Part shown: positions 7,549 through 61,956 of the stretch, piece after piece | Layout of the letters: each line of letters begins with the position of its first letter | Position numbering within the stretch: the first letter of the stretch is position 1 | Origin: Bugula neritina | Taxonomy: Eukaryota; Bryozoa; Gymnolaemata; Cheilostomatida; Bugulidae | Length of the DNA stretch: 64,000 nt | Direction of reading: 5' to 3' | NCBI GenBank assembly: GCA_964035545.1 | Contig: OZ037766.1 | Span: forward strand, 352,501 to 416,500 | Notes under the pieces: generated by a model | Database searches by the model: none | Seen by the model: only the letters and a program-made list of their open reading frames with translations | Told to the model about the DNA's origin: nothing | Program-made: the position numbers and the translations under genes

Positions 7549-9277
7549 ATGAAGGTTCTTTTCTTTCTGCTGATTGCCCTTGTTGCCATGACAACAGCGC
7601 TGATATTTCCTCGTTATGGCCATGGTTATGGTCACAGATTTGGTTTTGGACTCAGGAGAAGTTTTATTAGACGAAGAGTTCATTTTGGATATGGCGGTGG
7701 CCTGTTCAGGTACTCTCAGTTTAACACAACTCAGTTGGTGTGTGCTCAATGTGAAGAGGGAAACTAGATTTACTCAGTATTTGAATTTTCCTCATCAAAT
7801 GTAGTTTTTCATTTGATTTATTTAGTGCTTCTCTCTTCTTGTCAAAATATTTACAAAACAATTTAAAAATTACAAGATAAGATAAAATATTTTATGTTTT
7901 CACAAGTTACACCAACACATGCAGGCAATGTGTAGCCTGTGAACCTTGCTTTAATATCTTCAATCCTGCGCTTAGTTCTCATAATATAAAATCTTATTCT
8001 TTCTTGTAGAGGTGGATTTGGCTTCCGAAAATATGGTGAGTTGAATTATTTGAAGATAAACTTTTTGTTTTCTTTAATAATAAAATAAATTGTTCATCAA
8101 TAAAACTAAATTGAAACAAATGTTAATAGTTTTCTTTTAACTAAAAAGACAGCTATTAATTTTCTATATTAAATCTATTGATGAATTTTCTTTGAAGTAC
8201 AAATTATTTGCTAGAATCTAGATGATATAATATGAACAGAGCATATTATATGTCTCATATGGTAGTAAACTACAGCATATTATATGTCTCATGTGGTAGT
8301 AAACTACAGTATATTATATGTCTCATATGGTAATAAACTATAGCATATTATATGTCTCATGTGGTAGTAAACTACAGCATATTATATGTCTCATATGGTA
8401 GTAAACTACAGCATATTATATGTCTCATGTTGTAGTAAACTATAGCATATTATATGTCTCATATGGTAGTAAACTACAGCATATTATATGTCTCATATGG
8501 TAGTAAACTACAGCATATTATATGTCTCATATGGTAGTAAACTACAGCATATTATATGTCTCATGTTGTAGTAAACTATAGCATATTATATGTCTCATAT
8601 GGTAGTAAACTACAGCATATTATATGTCTCATATGGTAGTAAACTACAGCATATTATATGTCTCATGTTGTAGTAAACTATAGCATATTATATGTCTCAT
8701 ATGGTAGTAAACTACAGCATATTATATGTCTCATATGGTAGTAAACTACAGCATATTATATGTCTCATGTGGTAGTAAACTACAGTATATTATATGTCTC
8801 ATATGGTAATAAACTATAGCATATTATATGTCTCATGTGGTAGTAAACTACAGCATATTATATGTCTCATATGGTAGTAAACTACAGCATATTATATGTC
8901 TCATGTTGTAGTAAACTATAGCATATTATATGTCTCATATGGTAGTAAACTACAGCATATTATATGTCTCATATGGTAGTAAACTACAGCATATTATATG
9001 TCTCATATGGTAGACAACTTGAGTTTGTGATGTTGCAGTTGGACATTAACTTTAATTAAACTTTCAGTTAAATTAGACAGATTAAATTTTCTTTATTTCA
9101 ATAACTTTACAATAATTGTATGAAGCTACTTACATGAACTATTTTGCATTAAACTTCAAATTCTCAACTAAAAACTGCAATCTGAACAAGAAGTTGAGTT
9201 AGGCTGGAGTTTGACAACAGCTAAGTCAGTAAGTGTGTGTTGAACATATTATTCTCTTTGCAGGTTCTTATTATTAA
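7549..9277 (+). CDS. Small secreted Gly/Tyr/Arg-rich peptide, 66 residues, three coding exons
   Basis: Coding exons are 7549-7709, 8010-8035 and 9264-9277, with phases 2 and 1 matching at the junctions and TAA at 9275. The acceptor before the ATG is at 7534. The product opens with a textbook signal peptide (MKVLFFLLIALVAMTTA), then a short mature part rich in G, Y, F, H and R (for example PRYGHGYGHRFGFG, SFIRRR) ending KYGSYY. It has no Cys. The composition recalls glycine-rich cationic secreted peptides, such as antimicrobial, adhesive or matrix peptides, but I cannot assign a family or function. AATAAA follows at 9442-9447. A strong TATA box suggests regulated, high-level expression. Confidence 0.75.
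8215..9013. repeat. 34-bp minisatellite in the last intron of the secreted peptide gene
   Basis: About 23 copies of a 34-bp unit made of GCATATTATATGTCTCATAT and GGTAGTAAACTACA. Variants (CATGTGG, CATGTTG, TATAGC) recur in blocks, indicating higher-order duplication of several units at once. It occupies most of the intron 8036-9263. Confidence 0.95.
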
Positions 9278-18119: not shown

Positions 18120-19073
18120 ATGGAGACTGAAAATGCTGGAACTCAACCACCGGCAGTAGAAGGTGAGCGTAAAGACAATGCTGTAGAGACAATGCCTGTT
18201 AACCATGTAGTAGAGGAGCGAAGGGTTCCGCGAGAACTAACTGAAGACCGCTACCGGTTAGAGGCGCCCACCTTCACGGGTGAAGAGGAGGTGGAACAAT
18301 TTATTCAAGAGTTTAGCGACGTAATGGACGTCGCCCAGTGGCCCCCTAGGGTGGCATTGCTGAAGCTTAGAATGGCATTGATGGACAAAGCCAAGCCTTA
18401 TGGGCTGGGCGTAGACATTGATAATATCTTTGCTTCTCTGCGGGCCCGCTTCGGCCTCTCTGCTACAGATGCCAGGGCCCGATTGCAGAGGTTGCGGCGT
18501 GATCCCCGCACTCCGCTGCGGGAGCACGCCGCCGCGGTCATGAAGCTGGCACAGATCACGTACAGCGACTTGCCCCCAGTCAACTGCGAGAGGTATACCC
18601 TCGACGCTTTCATAGCATCTGTCGACGATTTGGGTCTCCACCACCAGTTTCTAGCTAGGGGAGTCACCACCGTCGAAGATGCTCTGACTGAGGGGGAAGC
18701 TTACCTCCTAGCTAATCAAATGCATAAAAGTCGCGGGAGCTCCCGTCAAATGGAGGTAGACCGCGCGGACACGGCCGCGGGACAAGGGGAGGAAACCCCC
18801 GCCGCGGCTGCCGTGTCCCAGTTGGCGACGGCATCGAAAGTCACTCAACTGACAGACATGCTGGCCAAACTGATAGCAACACTGACACCCCAAACCCCAG
18901 TGAGTACCGCCACTGAGCCCGTGCGGCCACCGGCGCCGCCACCGGGAGAAACAGTCAGTTTTTGCTGGGAGTGCGGAAATCAAGGACATTTCCGCCGGTA
19001 CTGTCCCTTCCTAAATCAGGGGTTAAACTACCGCGGCCCGCAGATGTTCCCACCTCCTGCGGGCCGACGATGA
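18120..19073 (+). CDS. gag: Gag of element 1 (capsid and CCHC zinc knuckle)
   Basis: 317 residues from the first ATG after the primer-binding site. The middle (EEEVEQFIQEFSDVMDVAQW onward, then TPLREHAAAVMKLA) has the helical look of Ty3/gypsy capsid. A CCHC nucleic-acid-binding knuckle, CWECGNQGHFRRYC, is near the end. Gag would package the RNA into virus-like particles. The start is fixed by conservation with element 3. A GTGAGC donor 43 bases after the A of ATG (codon 15, phase 1) fits the splicing proposed for ORF3. It overlaps pol by about 110 bases in another frame. Confidence 0.92.
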   Translation: METENAGTQPPAVEGERKDNAVETMPVNHVVEERRVPRELTEDRYRLEAPTFTGEEEVEQFIQEFSDVMDVAQWPPRVALLKLRMALMDKAKPYGLGVDIDNIFASLRARFGLSATDARARLQRLRRDPRTPLREHAAAVMKLAQITYSDLPPVNCERYTLDAFIASVDDLGLHHQFLARGVTTVEDALTEGEAYLLANQMHKSRGSSRQMEVDRADTAAGQGEETPAAAAVSQLATASKVTQLTDMLAKLIATLTPQTPVSTATEPVRPPAPPPGETVSFCWECGNQGHFRRYCPFLNQGLNYRGPQMFPPPAGRR

Positions 19074-22000
19074 AACCTCCAGGAAAGAAGAAACGCGGGT
19101 CACCCAGACGGGTACCGCGTACTGGTAACCAACCGTGGCAACAGCCACGACGGACCAGCAAGGGGCTCCGCCCCGCCGCTACCTTTTCCATGCCCCTTCA
19201 CAACAGATTCACAGGGCTACAAGCTCAAGAATCTGGATGGGAGCCCACAAAGGTAGCCGGAAATCTAGCCTCGGCACCTCCGAGGCCTGCTTACCACCGC
19301 CCCAAGAGACCTCCTTCGCGACCCAAAGCGAGGGAGGTACTCCCTGCGAGAGTAAGGCCTGAAGGGAGAGTTCAGGTGCAGCCCCATGGGAACAGCTATT
19401 TCTTGCCCGGTAAACTGGAAGGCAAAGCTGTTACTTTCCTCATTGATTCGGGCTGCACCACGAACCTCTTGAGCCGCCGACTCTTCGACACCCTCAGTGC
19501 TAGGGTCAGGGGCGAGATGGAATCATACGAAGGGGAATACGGCACCCTAGCTGACGGGTCGTGCCTTCCCTTCTATGGTATAATTGAGCTGACGGGGCGA
19601 GTCCGTGATCAAACGATCCAAGAGACGTTCATCGTCAGTCAGCTCAAGGAGGACGCCATCCTCGGGATGCCATTCCTAAAACGGCACGGATGTCACATGG
19701 ATTTTAGCAAATCTGCGATGATGATGTCCGGGCGAGAACTCGCCTGCGTCGACAAGTTCGGCCGCCCTTTAGTGGGAGGTGTGCAAGTGGTACGCAACCG
19801 TACCATACCAGGCCGCTCCCGGGCTACCATTCACTGCAGGGTGAACAATAGCCGGATCTCTGGACTCGGGGTAGTTGAAGGCGCGCACGAAAAGATCCAA
19901 CTTGCCAGCAGTCTGAATCAGCTGACTGAGCAAGGGGAGATCTTAGTGCAGTGCGTCAACCCCTTTACCGAGTCTGTCAAGCTTCCGGCTGGGTCGATGC
20001 TGGGCCGTTTTCACTCTGTTCAGGAGGAAGACATAGGCCCGTCGCTGGGTAATGCGACAGAGGCACGTCCTCAGTGCCCTACTCAAGGGCGAGGGGCAGT
20101 CCCAGCACATCTCCGGGAGTTGTATGACACAGCCTGTAGCGGCTGCGCGAGTAACAAAGAATGCCAAGTTATGGCGAAGTCACTACGCAACTACGGTGAT
20201 GTGTTCAGCAGCGGAGAGCATGACATGGGACTGACTGGAATTGTCAGACACGAAATACCGCTGACTGCAGGGACAGTCCCTGTCCGGCAGCCCACACGCA
20301 GGCTGGGGCCGGAGAAAGAGAAGGAGGTTAGCCGACAAGTACGGGATCTTCTGGACCGGGGACTGATAGAGCCCGCCCATAGTGCGTGGAGCTCGCCAGT
20401 CGTACTGGTCCGGAAGAAAGACGGCAGTTGGCGGTTCTGTGTGGATTACCGCAAGCTCAATAGCGTAACCATACAGGACGCCTACCCTCTACCTCGTATT
20501 GACGAGTCATTGGACGCCCTAGCTGGCAGCAAGTACTTCAGTACGTTAGACTTGCTAAGCGGCTATTGGCAAGTTCCTCTGAGTCCCGACGCCCAGGAGA
20601 AAGCGGCGTTTATCACACGGGACGGTTTGTGGAAGTGGAAGGTGCTGCCTTTCGGGTTGACCTCCGCCCCAGCCACCTTCCAGAGGCTGATGGAGCAAGT
20701 CCTCAGCGGGCTCTATTGGAAGACACTGCTGATCTACCTCGATGATGTCATCGTGATCTCCCCAGACTTCGAGGCGCATGTCAGTCGTCTGCAGGAGGTC
20801 TTTGAGAGACTCCGAGGTGCCGGTCTTAAGCTCAAACCTTCTAAGTGCGCTCTATTGCAGCCAGAGGTTAAGTACCTGGGGCACGTTGTCGGTCGAAACG
20901 GCGTGGCAACGGATCCCGAGAAGGTACGGGCAATAGAAGACTGGGTCACCCCCCAAGATTTGACTGGACTCCGGGCTTTCTTGGGGCTGGTAGGGTATTA
21001 CAGGCAATACATACCAGACTTTGCGGGCATAGCACAGCCGTTAAACCGGCTCACCGCAAAGGGAGTGACGTGGCAGTGGACCCCAGTCGAACAAGGAGCG
21101 TTCGACCGCCTCAAGGGCTGCCTACTAACGGCGCCCATCTTGGCCTACCCAGACCCCACTCTGGAGTACATCCTCGACACTGACGCCAGTGACCAAAATG
21201 TTGGCGCTGTGCTTTCACAAGTGCAGGAAGGCCGAGAGGTAGTAGTAGCCTACTACAGCAAGTCTCTCTCACCCACTGAACGGAACTACTGCACTACCCG
21301 CAAGGAGCTGCTGGCAGTAATCAAGTCAGTGAAGCACTTCAGACCATACCTATATGGCAGGAAGTTCCGGCTGCGTACGGATCATGCCTCGCTGATCTGG
21401 TTGTGCAAGAGAGCAGAGCCCTCTAGTCAGGTCGCCCGGTGGCTCGAAATCCTAGCTGAATTCTCATACCGGATCGAACATCGACCGGGCAAGAGACACA
21501 GCAATGCGGATGGGTTGAGTCGCCGACCTGACAGAGGTTGCAAACAGTGTCTCAACATCGAGAGGAGAGATGGAGGTCCCCCGCGATGCGAGTTGGAGAC
21601 GCTGGCTCACCACGGAGCACCGTTTGACTGGGACCAGGGTCAACTCAGGCAGGGAGTTGACGAGTCCCCGGAGGATGTACAAAACCTCCGCGCCAACCCT
21701 GTACTGGCCGGTAATGTTCGAGAGCTGAAGAAGCTCCAAGAAGAGCTGCCTGGAGTCGTGGCAGACATATATCGGGCCAAAAGGGAAGGGCGACGACCCA
21801 GCGAGGAACGCATACGACAGGGATGCGCCGAGTTCCGGCTATACTGTCAGCGTTGGGACTCGCTGCGGATCGGGCAGGATGGGTTACTAACCATCTCTCT
21901 AGCCGCCAGTGGCAGACACCCGGAGAGGAAGAGGGTAGTCTGCCCCACGGCCATCCGCCGTGAGTTGATTTGGGATACTCACAAACAGGCCCACGCAGGG

Positions 22001-23083
22001 GTCAAGAGAGTGATATCCAAATTACGACTCCGGTGGTATTGGCCTCAAATGGAGCGTGACGTCCGACTCAGAGTCAAACAGTGTGAGATTTGCCAGGCCA
22101 GTAAGCATAGCCGCCCCCTTGGTGAAGCAGGACGGCGGAGGCTATATGCTGGTAGGCCCTGGCAAGTAGTCGCTGTAGACCTGGTCGGACCCCTGCCCCT
22201 GACCCCCAGAGGCAATAATTGGATCCTAGTACTAACCGACCACTTTACTAGGTGGGCGGATGCTCTGGCTATCCCAGACGCGCCAGCTGAAACTTTTTCA
22301 GATTACACTCGACCCGCAACAACCAGGGTACGGGATAGAGCACTTCCCGCTCCGCATCCGGAGGAGTATGCTAGTGGTGACCGGCCCGAGCCACTGCGCC
22401 GCCGTTGGCGGTGGGTGTCTCCAGAAACAGAGGAAGAAATAGAAACGGCCTGGGGGTCCAGAGGACGGACGAGATGCCAGATTTGTGGCGAAGAATGTGC
22501 CTCTCACCGCTCCTTGAAGCTACACGTCAACGCCCATCTCTTACTAACATTCTGCCCCTGCGGATACAATGATGTCTACCCCTACCCCGTCACCAGACAT
22601 CGAGCGGCGGGCTGTTTCCCTGGAGAGAACTACGTGGTCGACGCTAAGCTCTACCCGGAATTCCTCACCCTGATACGACCCCTAGTAAAGAAGGCAATGC
22701 TGTTAGCCGTCCTGACCTCGGGTTTCCAACGTGTACTAGACAATGCCAGGCAGCAATCCCCATTAGTATCTGACCGTCCTCAGATTACGTACACCCCCGA
22801 AGAGTTTGCCTACCCAGAAGAAGGAGAGATCTCCCCTATCCCGACGAAGAGACGAACCAGGTCTCCCAGTCCCCCTTTACGCCGCAGACGGACACCGTCC
22901 CCAGACCCAGTTCGCCTGGCCACAGTAGAGGAACGCCTCCTCCGACTACAAGAAGAATTCACCCAGTTGGCACCGGATCTACTTAATACTACAACAGGGC
23001 TCTTCCAACTAAAAGGATCCGTATGCCGGATGAAACGGAAACTGCGTACATGCCAAGCCAAGCACCGGCGTGCACAACAATGA
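18962..23083 (+). CDS. pol: Pol of element 1: protease, RT, RNase H and truncated integrase fused to ORF3
   Basis: The open frame spans 1373 codons and overlaps the end of gag, so expression probably needs a ribosomal frameshift; its true first residue is unknown. In order: aspartic protease FLIDSGCTTNL (Asp near 19445), reverse transcriptase with YLDD at 20735-20746, RNase H (LDTDASDQN), then the integrase His/Cys zinc-binding domain (HKQAH...CEIC) and the first core Asp (VAVDLVGP). The frame leaves integrase after WADALAIPDA at about 22285 and continues as ORF3 (ETFSDYTRP). The second Asp and the Glu of the D,D35E triad are absent, so this integrase should be inactive. Both halves stay in frame, giving an unbroken chimera. 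Confidence 0.9.
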   Translation: MLGVRKSRTFPPVLSLPKSGVKLPRPADVPTSCGPTMKPPGKKKRGSPRRVPRTGNQPWQQPRRTSKGLRPAATFSMPLHNRFTGLQAQESGWEPTKVAGNLASAPPRPAYHRPKRPPSRPKAREVLPARVRPEGRVQVQPHGNSYFLPGKLEGKAVTFLIDSGCTTNLLSRRLFDTLSARVRGEMESYEGEYGTLADGSCLPFYGIIELTGRVRDQTIQETFIVSQLKEDAILGMPFLKRHGCHMDFSKSAMMMSGRELACVDKFGRPLVGGVQVVRNRTIPGRSRATIHCRVNNSRISGLGVVEGAHEKIQLASSLNQLTEQGEILVQCVNPFTESVKLPAGSMLGRFHSVQEEDIGPSLGNATEARPQCPTQGRGAVPAHLRELYDTACSGCASNKECQVMAKSLRNYGDVFSSGEHDMGLTGIVRHEIPLTAGTVPVRQPTRRLGPEKEKEVSRQVRDLLDRGLIEPAHSAWSSPVVLVRKKDGSWRFCVDYRKLNSVTIQDAYPLPRIDESLDALAGSKYFSTLDLLSGYWQVPLSPDAQEKAAFITRDGLWKWKVLPFGLTSAPATFQRLMEQVLSGLYWKTLLIYLDDVIVISPDFEAHVSRLQEVFERLRGAGLKLKPSKCALLQPEVKYLGHVVGRNGVATDPEKVRAIEDWVTPQDLTGLRAFLGLVGYYRQYIPDFAGIAQPLNRLTAKGVTWQWTPVEQGAFDRLKGCLLTAPILAYPDPTLEYILDTDASDQNVGAVLSQVQEGREVVVAYYSKSLSPTERNYCTTRKELLAVIKSVKHFRPYLYGRKFRLRTDHASLIWLCKRAEPSSQVARWLEILAEFSYRIEHRPGKRHSNADGLSRRPDRGCKQCLNIERRDGGPPRCELETLAHHGAPFDWDQGQLRQGVDESPEDVQNLRANPVLAGNVRELKKLQEELPGVVADIYRAKREGRRPSEERIRQGCAEFRLYCQRWDSLRIGQDGLLTISLAASGRHPERKRVVCPTAIRRELIWDTHKQAHAGVKRVISKLRLRWYWPQMERDVRLRVKQCEICQASKHSRPLGEAGRRRLYAGRPWQVVAVDLVGPLPLTPRGNNWILVLTDHFTRWADALAIPDAPAETFSDYTRPATTRVRDRALPAPHPEEYASGDRPEPLRRRWRWVSPETEEEIETAWGSRGRTRCQICGEECASHRSLKLHVNAHLLLTFCPCGYNDVYPYPVTRHRAAGCFPGENYVVDAKLYPEFLTLIRPLVKKAMLLAVLTSGFQRVLDNARQQSPLVSDRPQITYTPEEFAYPEEGEISPIPTKRRTRSPSPPLRRRRTPSPDPVRLATVEERLLRLQEEFTQLAPDLLNTTTGLFQLKGSVCRMKRKLRTCQAKHRRAQQ
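22301..23083 (+). CDS. ORF3 of element 1: zinc-finger/RS-rich/coiled-coil accessory protein (3' part of the fused frame)
   Basis: Equivalent to the separate ORF3 of element 3 (60581-61368) and closely similar to it. It has a C2H2-like finger (CQIC...LHVNAH), a second Cys/His cluster (FCPCGYND...RHRAAGC), a basic RTRSPSPPLRRRRTPSPDP stretch, a Leu/Glu heptad-like segment and a KRKLRTCQAKHRRAQQ tail. The acceptor AACTTTTTCAG|AT is kept just before it (AG at 22300-22301), so a spliced mRNA from the gag start could still produce ORF3 alone. No signal peptide or membrane segment is seen, so it is not an envelope protein. Confidence 0.7.
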   Translation, partial: DYTRPATTRVRDRALPAPHPEEYASGDRPEPLRRRWRWVSPETEEEIETAWGSRGRTRCQICGEECASHRSLKLHVNAHLLLTFCPCGYNDVYPYPVTRHRAAGCFPGENYVVDAKLYPEFLTLIRPLVKKAMLLAVLTSGFQRVLDNARQQSPLVSDRPQITYTPEEFAYPEEGEISPIPTKRRTRSPSPPLRRRRTPSPDPVRLATVEERLLRLQEEFTQLAPDLLNTTTGLFQLKGSVCRMKRKLRTCQAKHRRAQQ

Positions 23084-23371
23084 CTCTGGTTCTGCTACCC
23101 GGAATAATCCGCAACCTCGTCCTCCTGGGGGAAACCAGGATATCGTGTAAATGCTTGACTGCTCGACAGGCCTATTCCTTGTCTAATACCACAGCTAGCC
23201 GGTATTCCTCCTCTATAGCTGGTCAATTGTATGTAACTGGCTGTTATAATGACTCTGTCTGTTATTACGTATCTTTATCTGTGTTATGTATTATTTTGGT
23301 CTACTGATGTATGTGGTTAGTAATGAACGTTTTTTTATATCAGAAAGAGGGCTTTCTGCTGGTGGGGGCGG

Positions 23372-25736: not shown

Positions 25737-28700
25737 TTACTCCCACTTGACAATCTGTCTCTTGGACACATGTTGACCTCTGATCTCTGTGTTTGGAGGT
25801 AAGACAGCGAGGTAGTAGGGTGTGTCAGCACCTACAGTATAACACAGAATATGAGCTGTAAGACAGCGAGGTAGTAAGGTGTGTCAGCACCTACAGTATA
25901 ACACAGAATATGAGCTGTAAGACAGCGAGGTAGTAGGGTGTGTCAGCACCTACAGTATAACACAGAATATGAGCTGTAAGACAGCGAGGTAGTAGGGTGT
26001 GTCAGCACCTACAGTATAACACAGAATATGAGTTGTAAGACAGCGAGGTAGTAGGGTGTGTCAGCACCTACAGTATAACGCAGAATATGAGCTGTAAGAC
26101 AGCGAGGTAGTAGGGTGTGTCAGCACCTACAGTATAACACAGAATATGAGCTGTAAGACAGCGAGGTAGTAGGGTGTGTCAGCACCTACAGTATAACACA
26201 GAATATGAGCTGTAAGACAGCGAGGTAGTAAGGTGTGTCAGCACCTACAGTATAACACAGAATATGAGCTGTAAGACAGCGAGGTAGTAAGGTGTGTCAG
26301 CACCTACAGTATAACACAGAATATGAGCTGTAAGACAGCGAGGTAGTAAGGTGTGTCAGCACCTACAGTATAACACAGAATATGAGCTGTAAGACAGCGA
26401 GGTAGTAAGGTGTGTCAGCACCTACAGTATAACACAGAATATGAGTTGTATTTTGGAGTTGTCATATTACTAGTATATATAGTTTACACTACAATGTCTC
26501 TCACTATATACTACATACCTTCATCTGTAGTCAGATTTCCTTTGTAACTGCTCATACTGGTCATTACATATCCTGGGCAGGCCTAAAATAGTATATAATA
26601 AATTATCTATATTATACATAATCACAATGGAAACACAACTCCTATTATCACTAAAATGAAAATATAAACTACAACTTACACTGTTAACTATAATATATCT
26701 GTATAATATACTTAGACTGTCCACTATAATATATCATATACTTACACTATAATATATCATATACTTACACCACAATATATCATATACTTACACTATAATA
26801 TATCATATACTTACACTATAATATATCATATACTTACACTATAATATATCATATACTTACACTATAATATATCATATACTTACACTATAATATATCATAT
26901 ACTTACACTATAATATATCATATACTTACACCACAATATATCATATACTTACAGCATTCACGACAATGTCCCTCTCGGACACAGAGTTAAACTCCTGCTG
27001 ATAGGCTCTGGCTAGGAGAGTATCTCCCAGTTTAGAGACTGAATAGGCAGCGTCATCAGGCCAACCTTTCTCAGCAAAATCTCCAGCCTTCACGGCTCTA
27101 CAAGACATGAGAGAGAATATTGTGTAAGAGAATGAAACTCTTATATTCAGAATGATTGGAGGTCTGTACCTCTCCAAAAATATGTATTCTACGTGTCGAG
27201 TGAAGCAATACAAACATCCCAGTTGACATCCCCTCTCCTCTTGTTACATCCACCTCATCCTACGCGACGCTACATCCATCTTTTCCCTCCCCACTTTACA
27301 TCCGCCCCCTACTTCCCTGAGCTACATCCACTCCCTCCCTTTCTATGTTACTATTACCAGTTTAAAATCTCAGCTCAACGCCAGCATATCTGGTCAATCC
27401 TTATTATGTCATACTTTTGGCCTTGAAAAGTTGCCTCCTCCTATGTCAGTGAGATACGGTAGATTTGGTTCTGTACATGTATTTAGGTCATCAGTCTATT
27501 AATAAGTTGCTTCATCAAATGAATATAGCAGCACACTTGTGTCTTTCTTTGTTTGATTGAGTAAAACTATTTGGTTGAGCAAATTTATAAAATTGATAAC
27601 TTCTTAAAATAATTTTTATAAACCTGGACCAGTCAAAGCCCTAAATTACCCAGTCAAGTTTCTAGCGTGTACAACAGCATCCAAATAACTTTTTAAAACC
27701 CAATTATTTAATAGAACGGAGAGTATATGCTAGTAGAATGGAGAGTATATACTAGTAGAATGGAGAGCATATGCTAGTAGAATGGAGAGTATATGTTAGT
27801 AAAATGGAGAGTATATGTTAGTAGAATGGAGAGTATATGTTAGTAGAATGGAGAGTATATGTTAGTAGAACGGAGAGTATATGTTAGTAGAATGGAGAGT
27901 ATATGTTAGTAGAATGGAGAGTATCTGCTAGTAGAATGGAGAGTATATGTTAGTAGAATGAATCCAATGAATAAGCAGATGGTTGACTGACTGAATGAAC
28001 CCAAGGGAGAAGTTTAGTCTACCAGATCCATTTGATGATCTTGTCAGGAAAAGATATGATAATGGCACACAGAGACTGCCATCTTAATAAACACTCACGA
28101 GACGAAGTCAGTCATTGCCTGAAGGACTTGAGTCCTGGTCAGGGGAGGATCATTCTCGATAAATGAAGCGTATCTCTCGGGGTTCAACTTCTTAACCTTA
28201 TGAAGGGCCATGGGAGCCAGCATGCCGGAGAGAACCACAACTCTAAAACCAATCAGCAAATCAGCTGATGACCAATTAACTATAATAGTTCAATATTCAG
28301 GTGGACTTATTAGCTAGAAGGTGGAGGAAAACATTAAATAAAATACTTTATTACAGAACTGGATGTTTCAGAGTGAAAATCATACAAACTTCCAACTTGA
28401 TAATGAAACAATATCCTAGAGAAGACAACTTCTTAACATGTACAAATGTCAGGGTAAAGCAGAGTACACAGTTTATAGAAAGGCATACAGTGTGTATACT
28501 TGGTCTTAGTTACAGAAAACCATTAACTATTAAAGTAAAGTTAAGTATAAACCCAGGAATGCTGCCAAAAACCAACATGTGTTAGAACACTGACCTTGCT
28601 CTGTCCTTGAGAATAGGAAATAGAGTGTCACACACCATATTAGTACCAAACACATTTGTAGCCAGAGTAACCTCAGCTTTCACAGCGTATGGGTCGGTGG

Positions 28701-47601: not shown

Positions 47602-48690
47602 TCAAGCACTTCCTTTCATTCGGGCTACAGAGGCAGAGAGGGCCCGGAGTTCTGATGCGGCGGCGGAGATTCTCGGTGTCAGTCTTTGCACCTCTTTCTC
47701 TAATTCTCGTATCTGCTCTTCTGCCTCGCCTAGATTCCGGGCAGGGGCAGAGTGTCGGTTGGGGGATGAAGATGGCCAACGCCGTTTACGAGAAGGCCTT
47801 GGGGAGACAGGGGGGGAGGGACGCCATCGCTGTGGTATATCAATGCGTCGTAACACGACTCTTGGTATAGTCGGGGCGGGGCACTGTGCGTGCGGGGGGT
47901 GAGGGACGGGATACGCGTGGTTTCCTATATCCGGGTGGTTTAGGGCAGGGTCCCTGTGTGATGGTCCTGGGTGCGGGGAATTCCTGACGCAGCCGTTCAT
48001 ATCGAGCTGGGTCTGATATGAACGGTCGGATGAGATTAAGGAATTGTGGAAAGGAGGGTTCGTCGACTTCGAACAGGTGTCCAACATGGCATCCCATAGT
48101 TCGCTGGTGACGGAGGATGTAGTCCCTGTGGTAACTATATTCACCACAGGGACAGAAGGTGGTGAAATAATGTTGGGGAATATGAACTCAAAGTCTTCGT
48201 GGAGTAGTGAAGTGAAGCTGGCATAAACGGCAGGTGAAGCATTGGTCGTCTCCCTTGTGCTCTCGTATCAGTGTTTCTGTATCTGGTGTAACCCAGCATG
48301 ACTGCTGTAAGAGTGCCTCCGGAAGAGTAGTGGGAACGGGTTCCTCGTTCCAAGCCATTTCTAGTGACGGCATGTCACCAGAGAGAGGAGAGAGAGCGGT
48401 ATCTAAAAGAGCAGAATTACTGTTAGATCGAGTATGATCTTTACACCATAATTCTGATGACAACCGACTGTTACTAGTCTGGGAGTCATACATCTTTTCA
48501 GATAGCACTCGAGGGACTGAGTCGTGTCGTGTAGACTGACAGAGAGACATAGTGTCAAGCTCCAGATCTAGTAGATCGTCGGCCATCTTTATGTTCTCGT
48601 CGCCTTTCACGTAGGACTCAGTCCCCAGTAGTTGTGATTCAATCAAGGCGATTAAATCAGAACTGACTGATGGTAGACTGGTTTCCATGA
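47602..48690 (-). pseudogene. ORF3 of element 2: zinc-finger/RS-rich/coiled-coil accessory protein, broken
   Basis: It opens right after an acceptor (CATTTCCAG, exon from 48690) and reads METSLPSVSSDL. Order: acidic/Ser-rich N-terminal part of about 150 residues, half finger CRLC...F, an in-frame TGA at 48188-48190, then TTFCPCGEYSYHRDYILRH and a Cys, FPQFLNLIRPF, a frameshift near 47850-47900, a basic SPRPSRKRRWPSSSP stretch and a coiled coil (AEEQIRELEKEVQRL). The order equals ORF3 of elements 1 and 3 although sequence identity is low, which shows long-term conservation of the architecture. The N-terminal extension is specific to this element. Confidence 0.75.
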
Positions 48691-48753
48691 CTGGAAATGT
48701 TAGCTCAGAGCAAGCTTACCTGAGAACCCGGTATTTGTAATCATACTCAGCGT

Positions 48754-53462: not shown

Positions 53463-54190
53463 AGGTCTGGGGGTTTTGCTGCCGTCCTCTTACTCTTCCT
53501 TGAGTGGTTGTATGTTATCGTCGCCACCAATTGTCCCAGTCTAGTCATCAAGCGGCTTATCTCCATCTCTATGGGGGGTTTAGTGGTCGCGGCAGCTATG
53601 CGGGCCGGATGGTCTGGTTCCCTAGAGGTCTGGGGAGTGGCCTCTTCCGTCTTATAGAGTCGCTCGGCTCCAGCGTAGGCCTTGTTCTCCTGGATTGCAG
53701 CCTCGATTGTGGTCACTCCCTTGGCTTGTAACTGGTGGGAAGTCCAAAGAGTTGAGAGACTGTACAAAGGCTTCGAATGTGTAGTGCCGTCTGTGTGTTT
53801 CTGGCAGATCGCTATACGCGGTCCGTGCCAGTCTCTGCACCAGAGTGGCGTGGTCAGAGAGCGGTGTACATGTCTTGCGGAGTAATCCTCGCAGCCTGGA
53901 CTTGGCGACGGCAACGGGCATGCCAAAATGGGCCCGTAGTGTAGCAATGATCCCGTTTACGCTAGGCTTCCACCCGTCAGTGCCATCCGCAGTTTTGTAA
54001 GAGTTACTCTTGGCGGCCATCTTGTAATGGCTGCAGCTTCACGGAACTCTTGAACGAATTGTTCAATATCCTCGCGGCCTGTGAACACGGGAACCTCTAA
54101 TGTGTTCCTATATACCTCCTCTCCAGCTCCGAGAGGGCCTATAATAATGTTCTGCTCACCTCCTTCCATTGAAGTTACTCCCTCGTCCAT
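53459..54190 (-). pseudogene. gag: Gag of element 2, frameshifted
   Basis: It begins MDEGVTSMEGGEQN and continues through capsid-like FTGREDIEQFVQEFREAA. The frame shifts at about 54000 and back again at about 53730, ending at 53459. A typical zinc knuckle is not intact in this frame. A GTGAGC donor at 54159-54154 follows codon 10 plus one base (phase 1), the same layout as in elements 1 and 3. Confidence 0.8.
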
Positions 54191-54251
54191 GATGTTCTAA
54201 TACTTCTCATTGTTCTCATACAGTAGCTAGAAATCCCACCGCTGCCACCAC

Positions 54252-54510: not shown

Positions 54511-54814
54511 TGTGGTGGTTCGTGGAACTACCAGCAGCACAACATGCAGGGTCGCGTAATTGACCCGGAACAATGGATAGCCAATTAGCGTAGTTGATAG
54601 TTAGCAGCAATTGTAGTTCCCGCTGCTAACTCAGTCGAAGCTAGAGTGTTAAATAGATTAGATGTGTAACTTGTTAGAAATAATGTATCGTGTTTTTATG
54701 ATGTATAGTTGTGTATAAAATATACTCGTTCACTCGACTTAGCCTGGTGCAGTTCTATACTAGATAAATAGACTCTCTGGATAGCATATCAACCCTAATC
54801 TGAAAATTATAACA
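54511..54814 (+). repeat. 5' LTR of element 3
   Basis: 304 bp, TGTGGTGGTTCGTGGAAC ... AAATTATAACA. It shares the structure of the element 1 LTR but with many substitutions, so elements 1 and 3 are different subfamilies. Confidence 0.93.
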
Positions 54815-54845
54815 GTGGTGGCAGCGGTGGGATAGTGCATCCAAG

Positions 54846-55799
54846 ATGGAGACTGAAAATGCTGAAATTCAACCACCGGCAATCGAAGGTGAGCGTAGAG
54901 ACAATGCTGTAGAGACAATGCCTGTTAACCATGTAGTAGAAGAGCGAAGGGTTCCGCGGGAACTAGCTGAAGACCGCTACAGGTTAAAGGCGCCCACCTT
55001 CACGGGTGAAGAGGAGGTGGAACAATTTATTCAAGAGTTTAGCGACGTAATGGACGTCGCTCAGTGGCCCCCTAGGGTGGCCCTGCTGAAGCTTAGAATG
55101 GCATTGATGGACAAAGCCAAGCCCTATGGGCTGGGCGTAGACATTGATAATATCTTTGCTTCTCTGCGGGCCCGCTTTGGCCTCTCGGCTACAGATGCCA
55201 GGGCCCGATTACAGAGGTTGCGGCGTGATCCCCGCACCCCGCTGCGGGAGCATGCCGCCGCGGTCATGAAGCTGGCACAGATCGCGTACAGCGACTTGCC
55301 CCCAGTCAACCGCGAGAGGTACACCCTCGACGCTTTCATAGCATCTGTCGACGATCTGGGTCTCCACCACCAGTTTCTAGCTAGGGGAGTCACCACCGTT
55401 GAAGATGCTCTGACTGAGGGGGAAGCTTACCTCCTAGCTAACCAAATGCATAAAAGTCGCGGAAGCTCCCGCCAAGTGGAGATAGACCGCGCAGACACGG
55501 CCGCGGGACAAGGGGAGGAAACCCCCGCCGCGGCTGCCGTGTCCCAGTTGGCGACGGCATCAAAAGTCACTCAACTGACGGACATGCTAGCCAAGCTGAT
55601 AGCAACACTGACACCACAAAACCCAGTGAGTACCGCCCCTGAGCCCATGCGGCCATCGGCGCCGCCACAGGGAGAAACAGTCAGTTTTTGCTGGGAGTGC
55701 GGAAATCAAGGACATTTCCGCCGATATTGTCCCTTCCTAAATCAGGGGTTAAACTACCGCGGCCCGCAGATGTTCCCACCTTCCGCGGGCCGACGATGA
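54846..55799 (+). CDS. gag: Gag of element 3
   Basis: 317 residues, same length as in element 1 and highly similar. It has a capsid region and a CCHC knuckle (CWECGNQGHFRRYC). The ATG 54846 follows the primer-binding region by about 15 bases. Overlaps the pol frame from 55688. It contains the proposed splice donor GAAG|GTGAGC at 54888/54889. Confidence 0.93.
   Translation: METENAEIQPPAIEGERRDNAVETMPVNHVVEERRVPRELAEDRYRLKAPTFTGEEEVEQFIQEFSDVMDVAQWPPRVALLKLRMALMDKAKPYGLGVDIDNIFASLRARFGLSATDARARLQRLRRDPRTPLREHAAAVMKLAQIAYSDLPPVNRERYTLDAFIASVDDLGLHHQFLARGVTTVEDALTEGEAYLLANQMHKSRGSSRQVEIDRADTAAGQGEETPAAAAVSQLATASKVTQLTDMLAKLIATLTPQNPVSTAPEPMRPSAPPQGETVSFCWECGNQGHFRRYCPFLNQGLNYRGPQMFPPSAGRR
54885..54894 (+). 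promoter_or_regulatory. Proposed 5' splice site inside gag of element 3
   Basis: GAAG|GTGAGC, with the exon ending on the first base of codon 15. The equivalent sites in element 1 (near 18162) and element 2 (54160/54159, minus) keep GTGAGC and the same phase. Predicted partner: the acceptor at 60571-60580. Confidence 0.55.
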
Positions 55800-58700
55800 A
55801 ACCTCTAGGGAAGAAGAAACGCAGGTCACCCAGACGGGTACCGCGTACTGGCAACCAACAGTGGCAACAGCCACGACGGACCAGCAAGGGGCTTCGCCCC
55901 GCGGCTGCCTTTTCTATGCCCCTTCACAACAGATTCACAGGGCTGCAAGTCCAAGAATCTGGATGGGAGCACACAAAGGTAGCTGAGGATCTAGCCTCGG
56001 CACCCCCGAGGCCTACCCATCACCGCCCCAAGAGACCTCCTTCGCGACCCAAAGCGAGGGAGGTACTCCCTGCGAGAGTAAGGCCTGAAGGGAGAGTTCA
56101 GGTGCAGCCCCATGGGAACAGCTATTTCTTGCCCGGTAAACTGGAAGGCAAAGCTGTTACTTTTCTCATTGATTCGGGCTGTACCACAAACCTCTTAAGC
56201 CGCCAACTCTTCGACACCCTCAGTGCTAGGGTCAGGGGCGAGATGGAAGCATACGAAGGGGAATACGGCACCCTAGCTGACGGGTCGTGCCTTCCCTTCT
56301 ATGGTATAATTGAGCTGACGGGACGAGTCCGCGATCAAACGATCCAAGAGACGTTCATCGTCAGTCAGCTCAAGGAGGATGCTATCCTCGGGATGCCGTT
56401 CCTTAAACGGCACGGATGTCACATAGATTTTAGCAGATCTGCAATGATGATGTCCGGGCGGGAACTCGCCTGCGTCGACAAGTTCGGCTGCCCTTTAGTG
56501 GGAGGTGTGCAAGTGGTACGCAACCGTACCATACCAGGCCGCTCCCGGGCTACCATTCACTGCAGGGTGAATAGTAGCCGGATCTCTGGACTCGGGGTGG
56601 TTGAAGGCGCGCACGAAAAGATCCAACTTGCCAGCAGTCTGAACCAGCTGACTGAGCAAGGGGAGATCTTAGTGCAGTGCGTCAACCCCTTTACCGAGCC
56701 TATCAAGCTCCCGGCTGGGTCGATGCTGGGCCGTTTTCACTCTGTTCAAGAGGGAGACGTAGGCCCGTCGCTGGGTGATGCGACAGAGGCACTCCCTCGA
56801 CACCCTATTCAGGGACGAGGGGCAGTCCCAACACATCTCCGGGAGTTATACGAGACGGCCAGTAACGGCTGCGCGAGTAACAGAGAGCGCCAGGCTATGG
56901 CCAAGTTACTACGCGACTACGGTGATGTGTTCAGCAGCGGAGAGCATGACGTGGGACTGACTGGAATTGTCAGACACGAAATACCGGAGAAAGAGAAGGA
57001 GGTTAGCCGACAAGTACGGGATCTTCTGGACCGGGGACTGATAGAGCCCGCCCATAGTGCGTGGAGCTCGCCAGTCGTACTGGTCCGGAAGAAAGACGGC
57101 AGTTGGCGGTTCTGTGTGGACTACCGCAAACTCAATAGCGTAACCATACAGGACGCCTACCCTCTACCTCGTATTGACGAGTCATTGGACGCCCTAGCCG
57201 GCAGCAAGTACTTCAGTACGTTAGACTTGCTAAGCGGCTATTGGCAGGTTCCTCTGAGTCCCGACGCCCAAGAGAAAGCGGCGTTTATCACACGGGACGG
57301 TTTGTGGAAGTGGAAGGTGCTGCCCTTCGGGTTAACCTCCGCCCCAGCCACCTTCCAGAGGCTGATGGAACAAGTCCTTAGCGGACTCCATTGGAAGACA
57401 CTGCTGGTCTACCTCGATGATGTCATCGTAATCTCTCCAGACTTCGAGACACATGTCAGTCGTCTGCAGGAGGTTTTCGAGAGACTCCGAGGTGCCGGTC
57501 TTAAGCTCAAACCTTCCAAGTGCGCTCTGTTGCAGCCGTAGGTCAAGTACCTGGGGCACGTTGTCGGTCGAAACGGCGTGGCAACGGATCCCGAAAAGGT
57601 ACGGGCAGTAGAAGACTGGGTCACCCCCCAAGACTTGACCGGACTCCGGGCTTTCTTGGGGCTGGTAGGGTATTACAGGCAATACATACCAGACTTTGCG
57701 GGCATAGCCCAGCCGTTAAACCGGCTTACCGCAAAGGGAGTGACGTGGCAGTGGACTCTAGTCGAACAAGAAGCGTTCGACCGCCTCAAGGGCTGCCTCC
57801 TAACGGCGCCCATCTTGGCCTACCCAGACCCCACTCTGGAGTACATCCTAGACACGGACGCCAGTGACCAGAATGTTGGCGCTGTGCTGTCGCAAGTGCA
57901 GGAAGGCCGAGAGGTAGTAGTAGCCTACTACAGCAAGTCTCTCTCTCCCGCTGAACGAAATTACTGCACTACCCGCAAGGAGCTGCTGGCAGTAATCAAG
58001 TCAGTGAAGCACTTCAGACCATACCTATATGGCAGGAAGTTCCGGCTGCGTACGGATCATGCCTCGCTGATCTGGTTGTGCAGGAGAGCAGAGCCCTCTA
58101 GTCAGGTCGCCCGGTGGCTCGAAATCCTAGCTGAATTCTCGTACCGGATCGAACACCGGCCGGGCAAGAGACACAGCAATGCGGATGGGTTGAGTCGCCG
58201 ACCTGAGGGAGGTTGCAAACAGTGTCTCAACATCGAGAGGAGGGATGGAGGTCCCCCACGATGCGAGTTGGAGACGCTGGCTCATCACGGAGCACCGTTT
58301 GACTGGGATCAAGGTCAACTCAGGCAAAGAGTTGATGAGTCCCCGGAGGATGTACAAAACCTCCGCGCCAACCCTGTACTGGCCGGTAATGTTCGAGAGC
58401 TGAAGAAGCTCCAAGAAGAGCTGCCTGGAGTCGTGGCAGACATCTACCGGGCCAAAAGGGAAGGGCGACGACCCAGCGAGGAACGCATAAGACAGGGATG
58501 CGCCGAGTTCCGGCTATACTGTCAGCGTTGGGACTCGCTGCGGATCGGGCAGGATGGATTGCTAACCATCTCTCTAGCTGCCAGCGGCAGACACCCGGAA
58601 AGGAAGAGGGTAGTCTGCCCCACAGCCATCCGCCGTGAGTTGATTTGGGATACTCACAAGCGGGCCCACGCAGGGGTCAAGCGAGTGATGTCCAAATTAC

Positions 58701-59911
58701 GACTCCGGTGGTATTGGCCACAGATGGAGCGTGACGTCCGGCTCAGAGTCAAACAGTGTGAGATCTGCCAGGCCAGTAAGCATAGCCGTCCCCCTGGTGA
58801 AGCAGGACGGCGGAGGCTATATGCTGGCAGGCCCTGGCAAGTAGTCGCTGTAGACCTGGTCGGACCCATGCCCCTGACCCCCAGAGGCAATAATTGGATC
58901 CTAGTACTAACCGACCACTTTACTAGGTGGGCGGATGCTCTGGCTATCCCAGATGCATCAGCCCCAACGGTGGCCAGGGCACTAGACCAACATGTATTCT
59001 GTTATTTTGGGCTCCCCGAACAGATACACTCTGATCAAGGCGCTCAATTCCAGTCTCAACTGATGAGCGACCTTTGCCACCTCTGGGGAGTAAATCAGAG
59101 CAGGACCACCCCCTACCACCCTCAAGGTAACGGGGTGGTGGAGCGCAACAACCGGATGCTAGGTGATGCACTCCGGAGTCTCCTCCTTGGACGAGGTCAA
59201 GAGGAATGGGATACGGTGTTGCCGCAAGTCATGCGTGCATACCGTAGCACCCCACACACCAGTACTGGTGAGACCCCAAACCTCTTGATGCTCGGGAGGG
59301 AGACTCGTGTCCCTGACCATCTCACCTATCACGTTCCAGAGCAGGATAACTCAGTCCATGAGTATGCCAGTGAACTAGTGGAACGGATGAAGGCCGCACA
59401 CGAGATACTGCGTCAACAGCAGTGGAAGGTGCGGCACGAAGATTCCGATGAACCACCCCTCTATCAAAGAAAAGATAAGGTGTGGATGGTCAATTACCGT
59501 AGGCGCCGCGGACAGGCTGATAAGCTGAAGCCTAAGTTCGTAGGCCCCTACGTGGTCGTCGAGGCTATGCCCAATCATACGTACAAGATTGAGCGCTCAG
59601 GACAGGTGTCTATCCAGAATGAGTCTCGCTTGAAACCGTATTGGGCTAGCCCCGGCGGAGTGGGAGAAGCCTCCCCGTTGTTAGAGCCCAGGAGGCAGAC
59701 AACAACGCGCGGGCGACGGCGGCATGGACCTGAATACGAAGTGGTCATACCGCGGGAAGAAAACTTGGTGAGAGAGGAGCGGCAGCTTTTGTCAACAGAA
59801 GCGTGTCCGCCACCGCCGAGTCTAATTCCATCACTTCCAGAAACCGAGCCGGTTCCGGAAGTGCAAACCCCCACGGAGGGAGGGCTCCATCCGGAGAACA
59901 AGAAGAGGTGA
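55688..59911 (+). pseudogene. pol: Pol of element 3: protease, RT, RNase H and complete integrase, with one nonsense codon
   Basis: One frame runs 55688-57541, meets TAG at 57539-57541 (a GAG Glu codon in element 1), and continues in the same frame to 59911. Domains: protease IDSGCTTNL, RT with YLDD at 57410-57421, RNase H DTDASDQN, integrase zinc domain (HKRAH...CEIC) and core with Asp 58853, Asp 59033 and Glu 59141, a D,D35E spacing. About 17 codons just before RT (kept in elements 1 and 2) are deleted without changing frame, near 56986. A frameshift near 59880 separates the C-terminal tail. The single stop may be read through or may be a private mutation. Confidence 0.9.
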
Positions 59912-60267
59912 CCGGGGACGGTGAAGTAGAGACGCCATTAGAGGCCCCTACTAACGAACCGGCAAGCGTGTCACCCCCCCTAGAAAGGGGACAGCGTACG
60001 AGGCAACCCCCCGCATACTTGAAAGACTTCGTATGTGACTGCGTTAAAAGCGGCACACATGAAAGTCTAGGGGAAAACCGTACGAGAAAAGAATCGAGCA
60101 AATGTGGGAGTTGTCAACACCACGGAAATATCAACTTTTGTATCGGCGGAAATAGAAACAAAATTCATCCGCCGGGTGCACAAAGTCTTAATCACGCACC
60201 CCAACCACGTTGCTCGATCTTTTCATACGCTGATGCAGTCAAGAGTAGACGTGTTTCTAAGCAGTAG
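59803..60267 (+). CDS. C-terminal tail of Pol in element 3 (frame-shifted)
   Basis: Carries PPLERGQRTRQPPAYLKDF, a chromo-like or linker end typical of gypsy Pol C termini, then KCGSCQHHGNINFC and PRCSIFSYADAVKSRR. Element 2 keeps the same order in line with integrase, so in element 3 this frame is the displaced end of Pol and not an independent gene. The Cys/His cluster and the SYADAV motif are of unknown function. Confidence 0.65.
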   Translation: MSATAESNSITSRNRAGSGSANPHGGRAPSGEQEEVTGDGEVETPLEAPTNEPASVSPPLERGQRTRQPPAYLKDFVCDCVKSGTHESLGENRTRKESSKCGSCQHHGNINFCIGGNRNKIHPPGAQSLNHAPQPRCSIFSYADAVKSRRVSKQ

Positions 60268-60570
60268 TTCAAACCATTTCACATATTCAGTATGTCTTAC
60301 GACAACAGATCGTGGGGTGAGTTAACTATATCTTAATACGAAACTAGATTGCATCGCTCAGCTCTGACTCACTGAGTCAATCGAGCTGGAGATAGGTTAG
60401 TGAAATACCGTAGTAAGAACTCAGTTTGACTTAGAGATTTTTATAATCTCATTGCAATACGGTTCTATCTGACTATTCACTATCATTAATCTCTACGAGG
60501 TAACTGAATTAGGAGTTGCCAAGCTGTTCAAGCTGACAACACAGCAGTGTACTGTACTAACACTGTTGAA
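60268..60570 (+). other. Spacer between pol and ORF3 in element 3
   Basis: About 300 bases without an open frame or obvious repeat. It is missing from element 1, where the deletion runs from integrase to the ORF3 acceptor. It would be intronic in the spliced ORF3 mRNA. Confidence 0.5.
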
Positions 60571-60580
60571 ACTTTTTCAG
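60571..60580 (+). promoter_or_regulatory. Proposed 3' splice site of the ORF3 mRNA
   Basis: ACTTTTTCAG|ATTACACTCG: a pyrimidine tract plus AG, identical in element 1 at about 22292-22301. The exon starts in phase 1, complementary to the gag donor. In element 2 the corresponding site is AACATTTCCAG at 48691-48701 (minus), again phase 1. Confidence 0.55.
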
Positions 60581-61368
60581 ATTACACTCGACCCGCTACA
60601 ACCAGGGTACGGGATAGAACACTTCCCGCTCCGTATCCGGAGGACTATGCTAGTGGTGACCGGCCTGAGCCACTACGCCGCCGTTGGCGGTGGGTGTCTC
60701 CACAAACCGAAGAAGAAATAGAAACAGCCTGGGGGTCCAGAGGACGGACGAGATGCCAGATCTGTGGTGAAGATTGCGCCTCTCACCGCTCCCTTAAACT
60801 ACACGTCAATGCTCATCTCCTACTGACCTTCTGCCCCTGCGGGTACAATGATGTGTATCCCTACCCCGTCACCAGACACAGAGCGGCGGGCTGTTTCCCT
60901 GGAGAAAACTATGTGGTCGACGCTAAGCTATACCCGGAGTTCCTCACGTATATACGACCTCTGGTAAAGAAGGCCATGCTATTAGCCGTTCTATCCTCGG
61001 GGTTCCAACGTGTGTTAGACAACGCCCGCCAACAATCCCCGTTGGTGTCTGACCGCCCTCAAATTACATACACCCCCGAGGAAACTACATATCCAGAAGA
61101 AGGAGAGATCTCCCCTACCCCGGCGAAGAGACGGACCAGGTCCCCCAGTCCACCCTTACGCCGCAGACGGACACCGTCCCCAGACCCAGTACGACTAGCT
61201 ACAGTAGAAGAACGCCTCCTACGATTACAAGAAGAGTTCACCCAGCTGGCGCCAGATCTACTTAACACTACCACAGGACTCTTCCAGCTGAAGGGATCCG
61301 TATGCCGTATGAAACGGAAACTGCGTACATGCCAAGCCAAGCACCGGCGTGCCCAACAAGGACTCTAG
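60581..61368 (+). CDS. ORF3 of element 3: zinc-finger/RS-rich/coiled-coil accessory protein
   Basis: The intact open frame reaches upstream to 60547 and lacks an ATG for most of its length. If spliced from gag codon 14 plus one base, the product is about 276 residues starting METENAEIQPPAIED. Domains: basic RRRWRW region, C2H2-like finger CQIC...LHVNAH (first Cys at 60754), second cluster FCPCGYND...RHRAAGC, a helical YPEFLTYIRPLVKKAMLLAV segment, RTRSPSPPLRRRRTPSPDP (RS/SP-rich, nuclear-signal-like), a coiled-coil VEERLLRLQEEF and a basic KRKLRTCQAKHRRAQQ end. It has no signal peptide or membrane span, so it is not Env. Likely nucleic-acid binding and nuclear, by inference. I recognise no family. 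Confidence 0.75.
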
Positions 61369-61648
61369 TATGCTACCCAGAATACTCCACATTTGGTGAG
61401 GAACCAAAATCGTGCAAATGCTTAACTGCTAGACAGGTTATTCCTTGTCTAATACCACAGCTAGCTAGTATTCCTCGTCTATCTACAGCTGGCCAATTGT
61501 ATGCAACGGATCGTTATAACGACTCTGTCTATTATTATGTCTCTTCCTGTATATTATGTATTATTTTTGTCCACTGATGTATGCAATTACTATTGAATGT
61601 TTTTTTTATATATATATCAGAAAGATGGCTTTCTGCTGGTGGGGGCGG

Positions 61649-61952
61649 TGTGGTGGTTCGTGGAACTACCAGCAGCACAACATGCAGGGTCGCGTAATTG
61701 ACCCGGAACAATGGATAGCCAATTAGCGTAGTTGATAGTTAGCAGCAATTGTAGTTCCCGCTGCTAACTCAGTCGAAGCTAGAGTGTGAAATAGATTAGA
61801 TGTGTAACTTGTTAGAAATAATGTATCGTGTTTTTATGATGTATAGTTGTGTATAAAATATACTCGTTCACTCGACTTAGCCTGGTGCAGTTCTATACTA
61901 GATAAATAGACTCTCTGGATAGCATATCAACCCTAATCTGAAAATTATAACA
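61649..61952 (+). repeat. 3' LTR of element 3
   Basis: 304 bp, one-base difference from 54511-54814, preceded by the polypurine tract and followed by GTAT. Confidence 0.93.
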
Positions 61953-61956
61953 GTAT

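Follow-up and report, generated by a model that had tools for sequence, protein, structure and literature searches.

A third open reading frame of Ty3/gypsy elements in the bryozoan Bugula neritina is very probably expressed by splicing from the gag start codon

A stretch of 64,000 nucleotides (nt) of the Bugula neritina genome (assembly GCA_964035545.1, contig OZ037766.1, positions 352,501 to 416,500; hereafter the window) carries three gypsy elements, here called elements 1 to 3, each with a third open reading frame (ORF3). An earlier reading of this DNA from its letters alone (the sequence-only reading) had proposed that ORF3 is a dedicated accessory protein made from an RNA spliced at a codon near the gag start. 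Our analysis argues that this splice is near-certain, and that, in this Ty3/gypsy lineage, ORF3 is very probably translated as an accessory protein from a subgenomic RNA produced by splicing. The evidence comprises a spliced retrocopy (L109), the identical join in a metagenome protein (P0023), the matching phases, donor conservation and selection on ORF3. As a statement on all three elements the proposal holds for the type of subfamilies A to C and fails in part for element 2, whose acceptor had been misplaced and whose ORF3 has an ATG of its own.

Element 3 (54511-61954) has the long terminal repeats (LTRs), the gag gene and the pol order (protease, reverse transcriptase (RT), RNase H, integrase) of Ty3/gypsy elements (Metaviridae). 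Its donor GAAG/GTGAGC (54888/54889; slashes mark the proposed splice borders) and its acceptor CTTTTTCAG/AT (60580/60581) both lie in phase 1, as the sequence-only reading had stated, and ORF3 is open to 61368. The corresponding boundaries are those at which the corresponding segment was excised in L109, a copy of a related subfamily. The first 131 residues of this ORF3 contain no ATG. Among the 30 best-scoring ORF3 loci of the A family, which are near-identical and include element 3, the acceptor was kept in all, none had an in-frame ATG in the stretch from the preceding stop to the acceptor (0/30), and a branch-point-like TACTAAC stood within 40 nt of the acceptor in 26; in the five loci read individually the first methionine was residue 132. 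The claim that ORF3 lacks an early ATG of its own is thereby upheld for A.

We searched the genome that contains the window (G000; 216 Mb, 295 contigs) with three ORF3 queries, which yielded overlapping sets of at least 146, at least 150 and at least 150 matches, and with gag, whose 126 matches were used for pairing both ends of copies. The ORF3 relatives formed three subfamilies, A (with elements 1 and 3 of the window), B and C, whose ORF3s are 54-64% identical to one another, plus single copies (D). A 17-letter probe for the spliced join of B and C had one exact match in the genome, at C4:11844309 on the minus strand (L109). This subfamily C copy consists of an LTR (about 350 nt), a leader containing the primer-binding-site-like GTGGCAGCGGTGGG, then the gag ATG with its 43 nt, ORF3 to the stop and a second LTR; the intron is gone exactly at donor and acceptor, the frame is open over 261 amino acids (aa) and the LTRs are 98.6% identical. 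When 176 bases around the join were used as BLAST query, L109 alone of the 40 matches spanned it, while 36 others started at query position 46 or 49, one started at 91, and two exon 1 matches ended at 50. Thus an RNA that had already been spliced was copied by reverse transcription and integrated, and L109 is direct evidence that the splice occurs. Furthermore, the metagenome protein P0023 starts with MAEEGTELPIPRNE, the first 14 residues of the gag protein P0127, and continues with DHTRL of ORF3, the same join in another family; whether it stems from RNA or DNA, such a join implies a splice. It was the only one among 72 metagenome ORF3 relatives (many of them fragments), all of which were scanned for a gag-like start and 63 of which were read by eye. 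Scans of IMG/VR with P0023 and A1 found no relatives.

Other junction probes were compared with reversed-pattern controls. The A probe (up to three mismatches) gave 57 hits versus 77 in the control and none with fewer than two mismatches; the B and C probe (up to one mismatch) gave 6 versus 16, one of them exact (L109); the element 2-like probe for CAG/GTAAGC (up to one mismatch) gave 48 versus 7, none exact (GTAAG donors are common); the family J probe gave none. Of the 20 probe loci fetched (10 of the 57, all 6 and 4 of the 48, respectively), only L109 and L113 held an ORF3 relative. L113 was rejected as a spliced copy, its hit being a chance match to the strand opposite an unspliced acceptor of B type.

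The site sample comprised 30 non-randomly picked copies with both ends and two window copies, scored by script and by hand. Donor GTGAG was present in 30 of the 32 copies (GTGAA in copy C1, donor lost in A4) and the acceptor CAG in 31, lost in one old copy (E3), and both ends were in phase 1 in the subfamilies checked; conservation of donor, acceptor and phase in related elements, which the sequence-only reading had named as a check, is borne out. With the start fixed at 43 nt the script found 28 exact donors, and two were added by hand, one copy having its ATG three bases earlier and the other a mutated ATG; for two acceptors the script had chosen a wrong AG with the right one visible. Despite differing sequence, exon 1 measured 43 nt in L116 (D), L127 (J) and subfamilies A to C, apart from one C copy with 46 nt; it measured 31 nt in L126, L129, element 2 and, counted from the ATG nearest the donor, L125. 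For L117, L118 and L128 no gag start was found within the stretch fetched. The acceptor of L118 is damaged (TTTCAAG versus TTTCAGG in L116 and L117).

The gag N-terminus was aligned for those 64 of 120 metagenome gag proteins that have a methionine preceding the conserved core. EGE occurred within the first 22 residues in 46 of the 64 and GE in 53. The donor-encoding columns E-G-E had entropies of 0.67 (E in 53/59), 0.68 (G in 53/60) and 0.00 (E in 60/60), compared with 1.8-2.8 in the four to five columns flanking them on each side; a few columns further away were also fairly conserved (0.87-1.25), and the donor is therefore not the sole constraint on this region. EGE began at residue 14 in 24 proteins, at residue 10 in 18 and elsewhere in 4, and the phase follows. 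Some gag proteins have S for G, with which GT is still possible, and two have D, with which it is not. In L126 the second E is replaced by K and the donor is still good as GGAG/GTAAGC, which favours a constraint acting on the RNA. ORF3 gave ratios of nonsynonymous to synonymous divergence (dN/dS) of 0.12 (A-D), 0.21 (A-C), 0.12 (B-C) and 0.15 (H-I), at dS values of 1.5-2.1, near saturation; the other 17 pairs were saturated. Judged by these ratios, ORF3 is under purifying selection.

Element 2 and its relatives have a more complex layout. Its GTGAGC donor ten codons into gag, in phase 1, was read as predicted (54190-54160, minus strand). The acceptor named by the sequence-only reading (48691/48690) did not hold up: its AG is private to the window copy, L120-L124 having CCAC and L126-L129 no AG there. 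A conserved acceptor, CTAAC...CTCTTTTAG/AT, lies 288 nt beyond it, at 48403/48402, with layout and phase matching those of element 3; TTTTAG/ATACC is present in 6/6 close copies including element 2, and L126-L129 have TTTTAG or TTGTAG, in phase 1. The residues that follow are D-T-T-R (L128) and D-A-T-R (L126), near the D-[YH]-T-R of A to C, or the more divergent D-T-A-L (element 2) and D-T-L-A (L127). In most of the 150 scored matches, ORF3 of this group was free of stops across the 174 residues that the search covered. Upstream of the acceptor lie a coding extension and, before it, a mini-exon-like ATG with eight codons, which ends in CAG/GTAAGC in L120-L124 and L126-L129, apart from L128 (AAG); it may serve as an alternative first exon or for recursive splicing.

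As an addition to the splice of element 3, and not a rival of it, the element 2-like families might make a long ORF3 from its own ATG plus a short spliced isoform, from gag or from the mini-exon. We hold this possible, on balance somewhat doubtful; the short form is inferred only. It would fit that the ATG, the eight codons with G/GTAAGC and the internal acceptor are all conserved and all in phase 1, that the N-terminal extension is coding with gaps in threes, and that a comparison of families H and I gives a synonymous divergence about ninefold lower in the extension (0.22) than after the acceptor (1.96), where sliding identity also falls. The low value could reflect an extra RNA constraint or recombination, and recombination between families, the AAG of L128 and the absence of a spliced retrocopy at the junctions probed speak against two isoforms.

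The ORF3 protein is basic, finger-like and not Env-like, and probably self-associating. Pfam matched zinc fingers weakly (C2H2 at 13.3 bits, below the 25.2 cut-off). C-x2-C-x(11-13)-H-x3-H occurred in 33 of the 72 relatives, C-x-C-x(11-13)-H-x(3-5)-C in 46 and both in 30, each pattern in no shuffled sequence. AlphaFold (28 sequences) predicted helices around the finger-like part, plus a helix spanning 208-260; the top three Foldseek hits hold zinc-finger domains (E 0.72 and above, none significant), and a profile search of the PDB gave weak matches, zinc fingers foremost. In element 3 the net charge is +15. The position of ORF3 between pol and the 3' LTR would suit an Env (entry) protein made from a spliced RNA, like that of insect errantiviruses, and this candidate was tried and rejected as very unlikely: no Env family was among the curated matches, among 28 members one matched a poxvirus envelope model at E 0.15, which we ascribe to chance similarity in a helical stretch, and element 3 has no strong membrane span (largest 19-residue hydropathy 1.24; above 1.6 in 6/72 relatives). 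The C2H2- and C2HC-type spacing and the long predicted C-terminal helix likewise argue against Env.

Several observations weigh against expression of ORF3 by splicing. In B, C and D in-frame ATGs stand 18, 24 and 42 codons past the acceptor, and the element 2-type ORF3 has a conserved ATG (48688) upstream of its acceptor. Spliced initiation is compulsory in A only, because these other families have an in-frame ATG or one of their own. The contrary evidence named by the sequence-only reading, intact relatives with an ATG-initiated ORF3, is thus present in part, in the element 2-like group and through the in-frame ATGs of B, C and D; L109 nonetheless shows the splice in use. The leader of element 2 (54190-54230, minus strand) has an ATG a short way ahead of that of gag and out of frame with it; as an upstream start, it could influence the translation of gag and of the gag-ORF3 join. 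A single spliced retrocopy was found, in subfamily C and with no clear target-site duplication, and the junction probes found none of A, B or the element 2-like families. Pfam supports the zinc and coil features weakly, the predicted structure is of poor quality (mean predicted local distance difference test score 56.6), and all evidence for the splice lies at the level of DNA and protein sequence. The ATGs of B, C and D, which precede the zinc region, and that of the element 2-like ORF3 would suit translation without a splice, from another transcript or by read-through or frameshift from pol, with the sites incidental. We consider this improbable, given that A has no such ATG, that L109 and P0023 show the splice, and that both sites are retained through wide divergence. 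That L109 is a chance deletion, for which its single copy and the lack of a clear target-site duplication might speak, appears extremely unlikely: its two breakpoints coincide exactly with the predicted GT and AG and leave the frame intact, and P0023 of a different family carries the same join.

On the spliced reading, transcription would begin in the 5' LTR, the donor, which lies 43 nt into gag or, in element 2-like families, 31 nt, would be joined to the acceptor before ORF3, and translation would start on the gag AUG and carry 14 (or 10) gag residues, while the unspliced RNA would serve as gag-pol mRNA and genome. ORF3 itself may be a nuclear, self-associating, nucleic-acid-binding regulator. 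As gag-pol lies within the intron, the unspliced RNA must leave the nucleus, and ORF3 would most likely aid its persistence or export, as CERV does for Cer1; by analogy we put this regulatory role at slightly less than an even chance, and a CERV- or Rev-like function is a hypothesis. A family B copy, L115 (G000:C1:29190600-29196300; LTRs 99.4% identical), holds gag, protease, an integrase zinc domain and ORF3; the part of its pol ORF from protease to zinc domain showed no RT domain, and the copy is apparently non-autonomous. Its gag and ORF3 are open, as is ORF3 in most B matches listed, which fits a product that the element requires for its own RNA or particle. Rather unlikely, in our estimate, is the widest version: a new family of retroelement regulators, zinc-binding, self-associating, made from spliced RNA only and governing how the unspliced genome is spliced or exported, including the RT-less family and a long/short switch in the element 2-like group (second start and dual-purpose CAG/GTAAGC). 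If true, such regulators would occur in many gypsy families within a single invertebrate lineage.

Positions of the features are collected in Table 1. Element 1 (18120-23086) shares the donor and acceptor pair of element 3, as the sequence-only reading stated. A deletion has placed its integrase in frame with ORF3, giving an open frame of 1396 aa, and the TACTAAC was lost with it; element 1 is thus a damaged copy, not a second independent example.

Table 1. Features of the three elements, in window positions; slashes mark splice borders.
Feature	Position	Strand	Remark
5' LTR, element 3	54511..54816	+	306 nt as matched; 99.67% identity to 61649-61954
Proposed exon 1, element 3	54846..54888	+	gag ATG at 54846; 43 nt; ends GAAG; phase 1
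gag ORF, element 3	54846..55799	+	CCHC zinc-knuckle match weak, below cut-off
Proposed intron, element 3	54889..60580	+	5692 nt; GTGAGC ... CTTTTTCAG; nearly all of gag and pol
pol, element 3	55643..59911	+	protease, RT, RNase H, integrase; interrupted by stop 57539-57541 in this copy
Branch-point-like TACTAAC, element 3	60555..60561	+	A at 60560, 20 nt before intron end
ORF3 exon, element 3	60581..61368	+	C2H2 and C2HC-like region, linker, C-terminal helix
3' LTR, element 3	61649..61954	+	LTR comparison
Exon 1, element 1	18120..18162	+	43 nt and donor as in element 3 (18162/18163)
ORF3 exon, element 1	22302..23086	+	match extent including TGA; acceptor 22301/22302
Exon 1, element 2	54160..54190	-	31 nt, 10 codons + 1 nt; donor GGAG/GTGAGC; phase 1
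Mini-exon-like ATG, element 2	48720..48744	-	8 codons + G/GTAAGC; phase 1; conserved
ORF3 N-terminal extension, element 2	48403..48688	-	coding, from own conserved ATG (48688)
ORF3 past conserved acceptor, element 2	48191..48402	-	acceptor 48403/48402, TTTTAG/AT; phase 1; to first stop

In addition, element 3 holds a pol-tail-like stretch (SYADAVKSRR) at 59734-60267, in a frame differing from the main pol ORF. Elsewhere in the window we noted tandem arrays at 859-1533, 2255-2830, 8104-9185 and 25799-26570, with 15-, 32-, 34- and 59-bp units. In the genome assembly, differing cox1 genes were found on contigs C196, C65, C17 and C295 (C196 and C65 matched in two pieces), that of C17 alone without TGA codons, which suggests mitochondrial DNA from more than one source, or contaminants. 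In the putative mitochondrial cox1 (L134) TGA reads as Trp and AGR fits Ser best, which points to a host among the invertebrate bilaterians.

Few env-less LTR retrotransposons with a spliced regulatory gene are known, CERV of Cer1 being the one we found with a tested function. The literature searched held no description of this ORF3 family, its spread, an RT-less family that keeps it, or a spliced retrocopy. The hundreds of copies, in several divergent and partly very young families, allow conservation, a spliced retrocopy and natural mutants to be compared, and offer a testable case that control of the balance of spliced and unspliced RNA by a dedicated protein has evolved repeatedly outside retroviruses, or has an earlier origin than assumed.

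L109 and P0023 place these elements among retroelements with a third ORF spliced from the gag start; the membrane fusion glycoprotein that would mark an errantivirus or a retrovirus with env was not found in ORF3. Splicing from the gag start is already known from avian retroviruses and idefix env, and a non-Env product from Cer1. The splice donor of Rous sarcoma virus is at nt 397 (PMC5035971). The env mRNA of the avian sarcoma/leukosis viruses resembles our case in a donor just within gag and a gag AUG that starts the downstream protein, with a six-codon leader; the product there is Env, whereas ORF3 is zinc-finger-like without an evident membrane span. Within Metaviridae, a report on insect errantiviruses (PMC12992720) describes an idefix subclade with env spliced from within gag, likewise a third ORF, but the product is an F-type Env, features of which are absent from ORF3. 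With HIV-1 (human immunodeficiency virus type 1) Rev and similar export regulators the likeness would lie in the proposed role only. A further close parallel is Cer1 of C. elegans, a Ty3/gypsy element whose CERV (PMC10309623) is a spliced regulator of genomic-RNA export, of 517 aa and five exons with a G domain, its first exons sharing the gag frame. Both are gypsy-type elements with a non-Env ORF between pol and the 3' LTR, a spliced mRNA, a Cys-rich finger-like region and predicted oligomerisation; ORF3 differs in its one large intron, its 14 or 10 gag codons, its C2H2/C2HC-like region and its C-terminal helix. The comparison of CERV and ORF3 is one of layout and expression.

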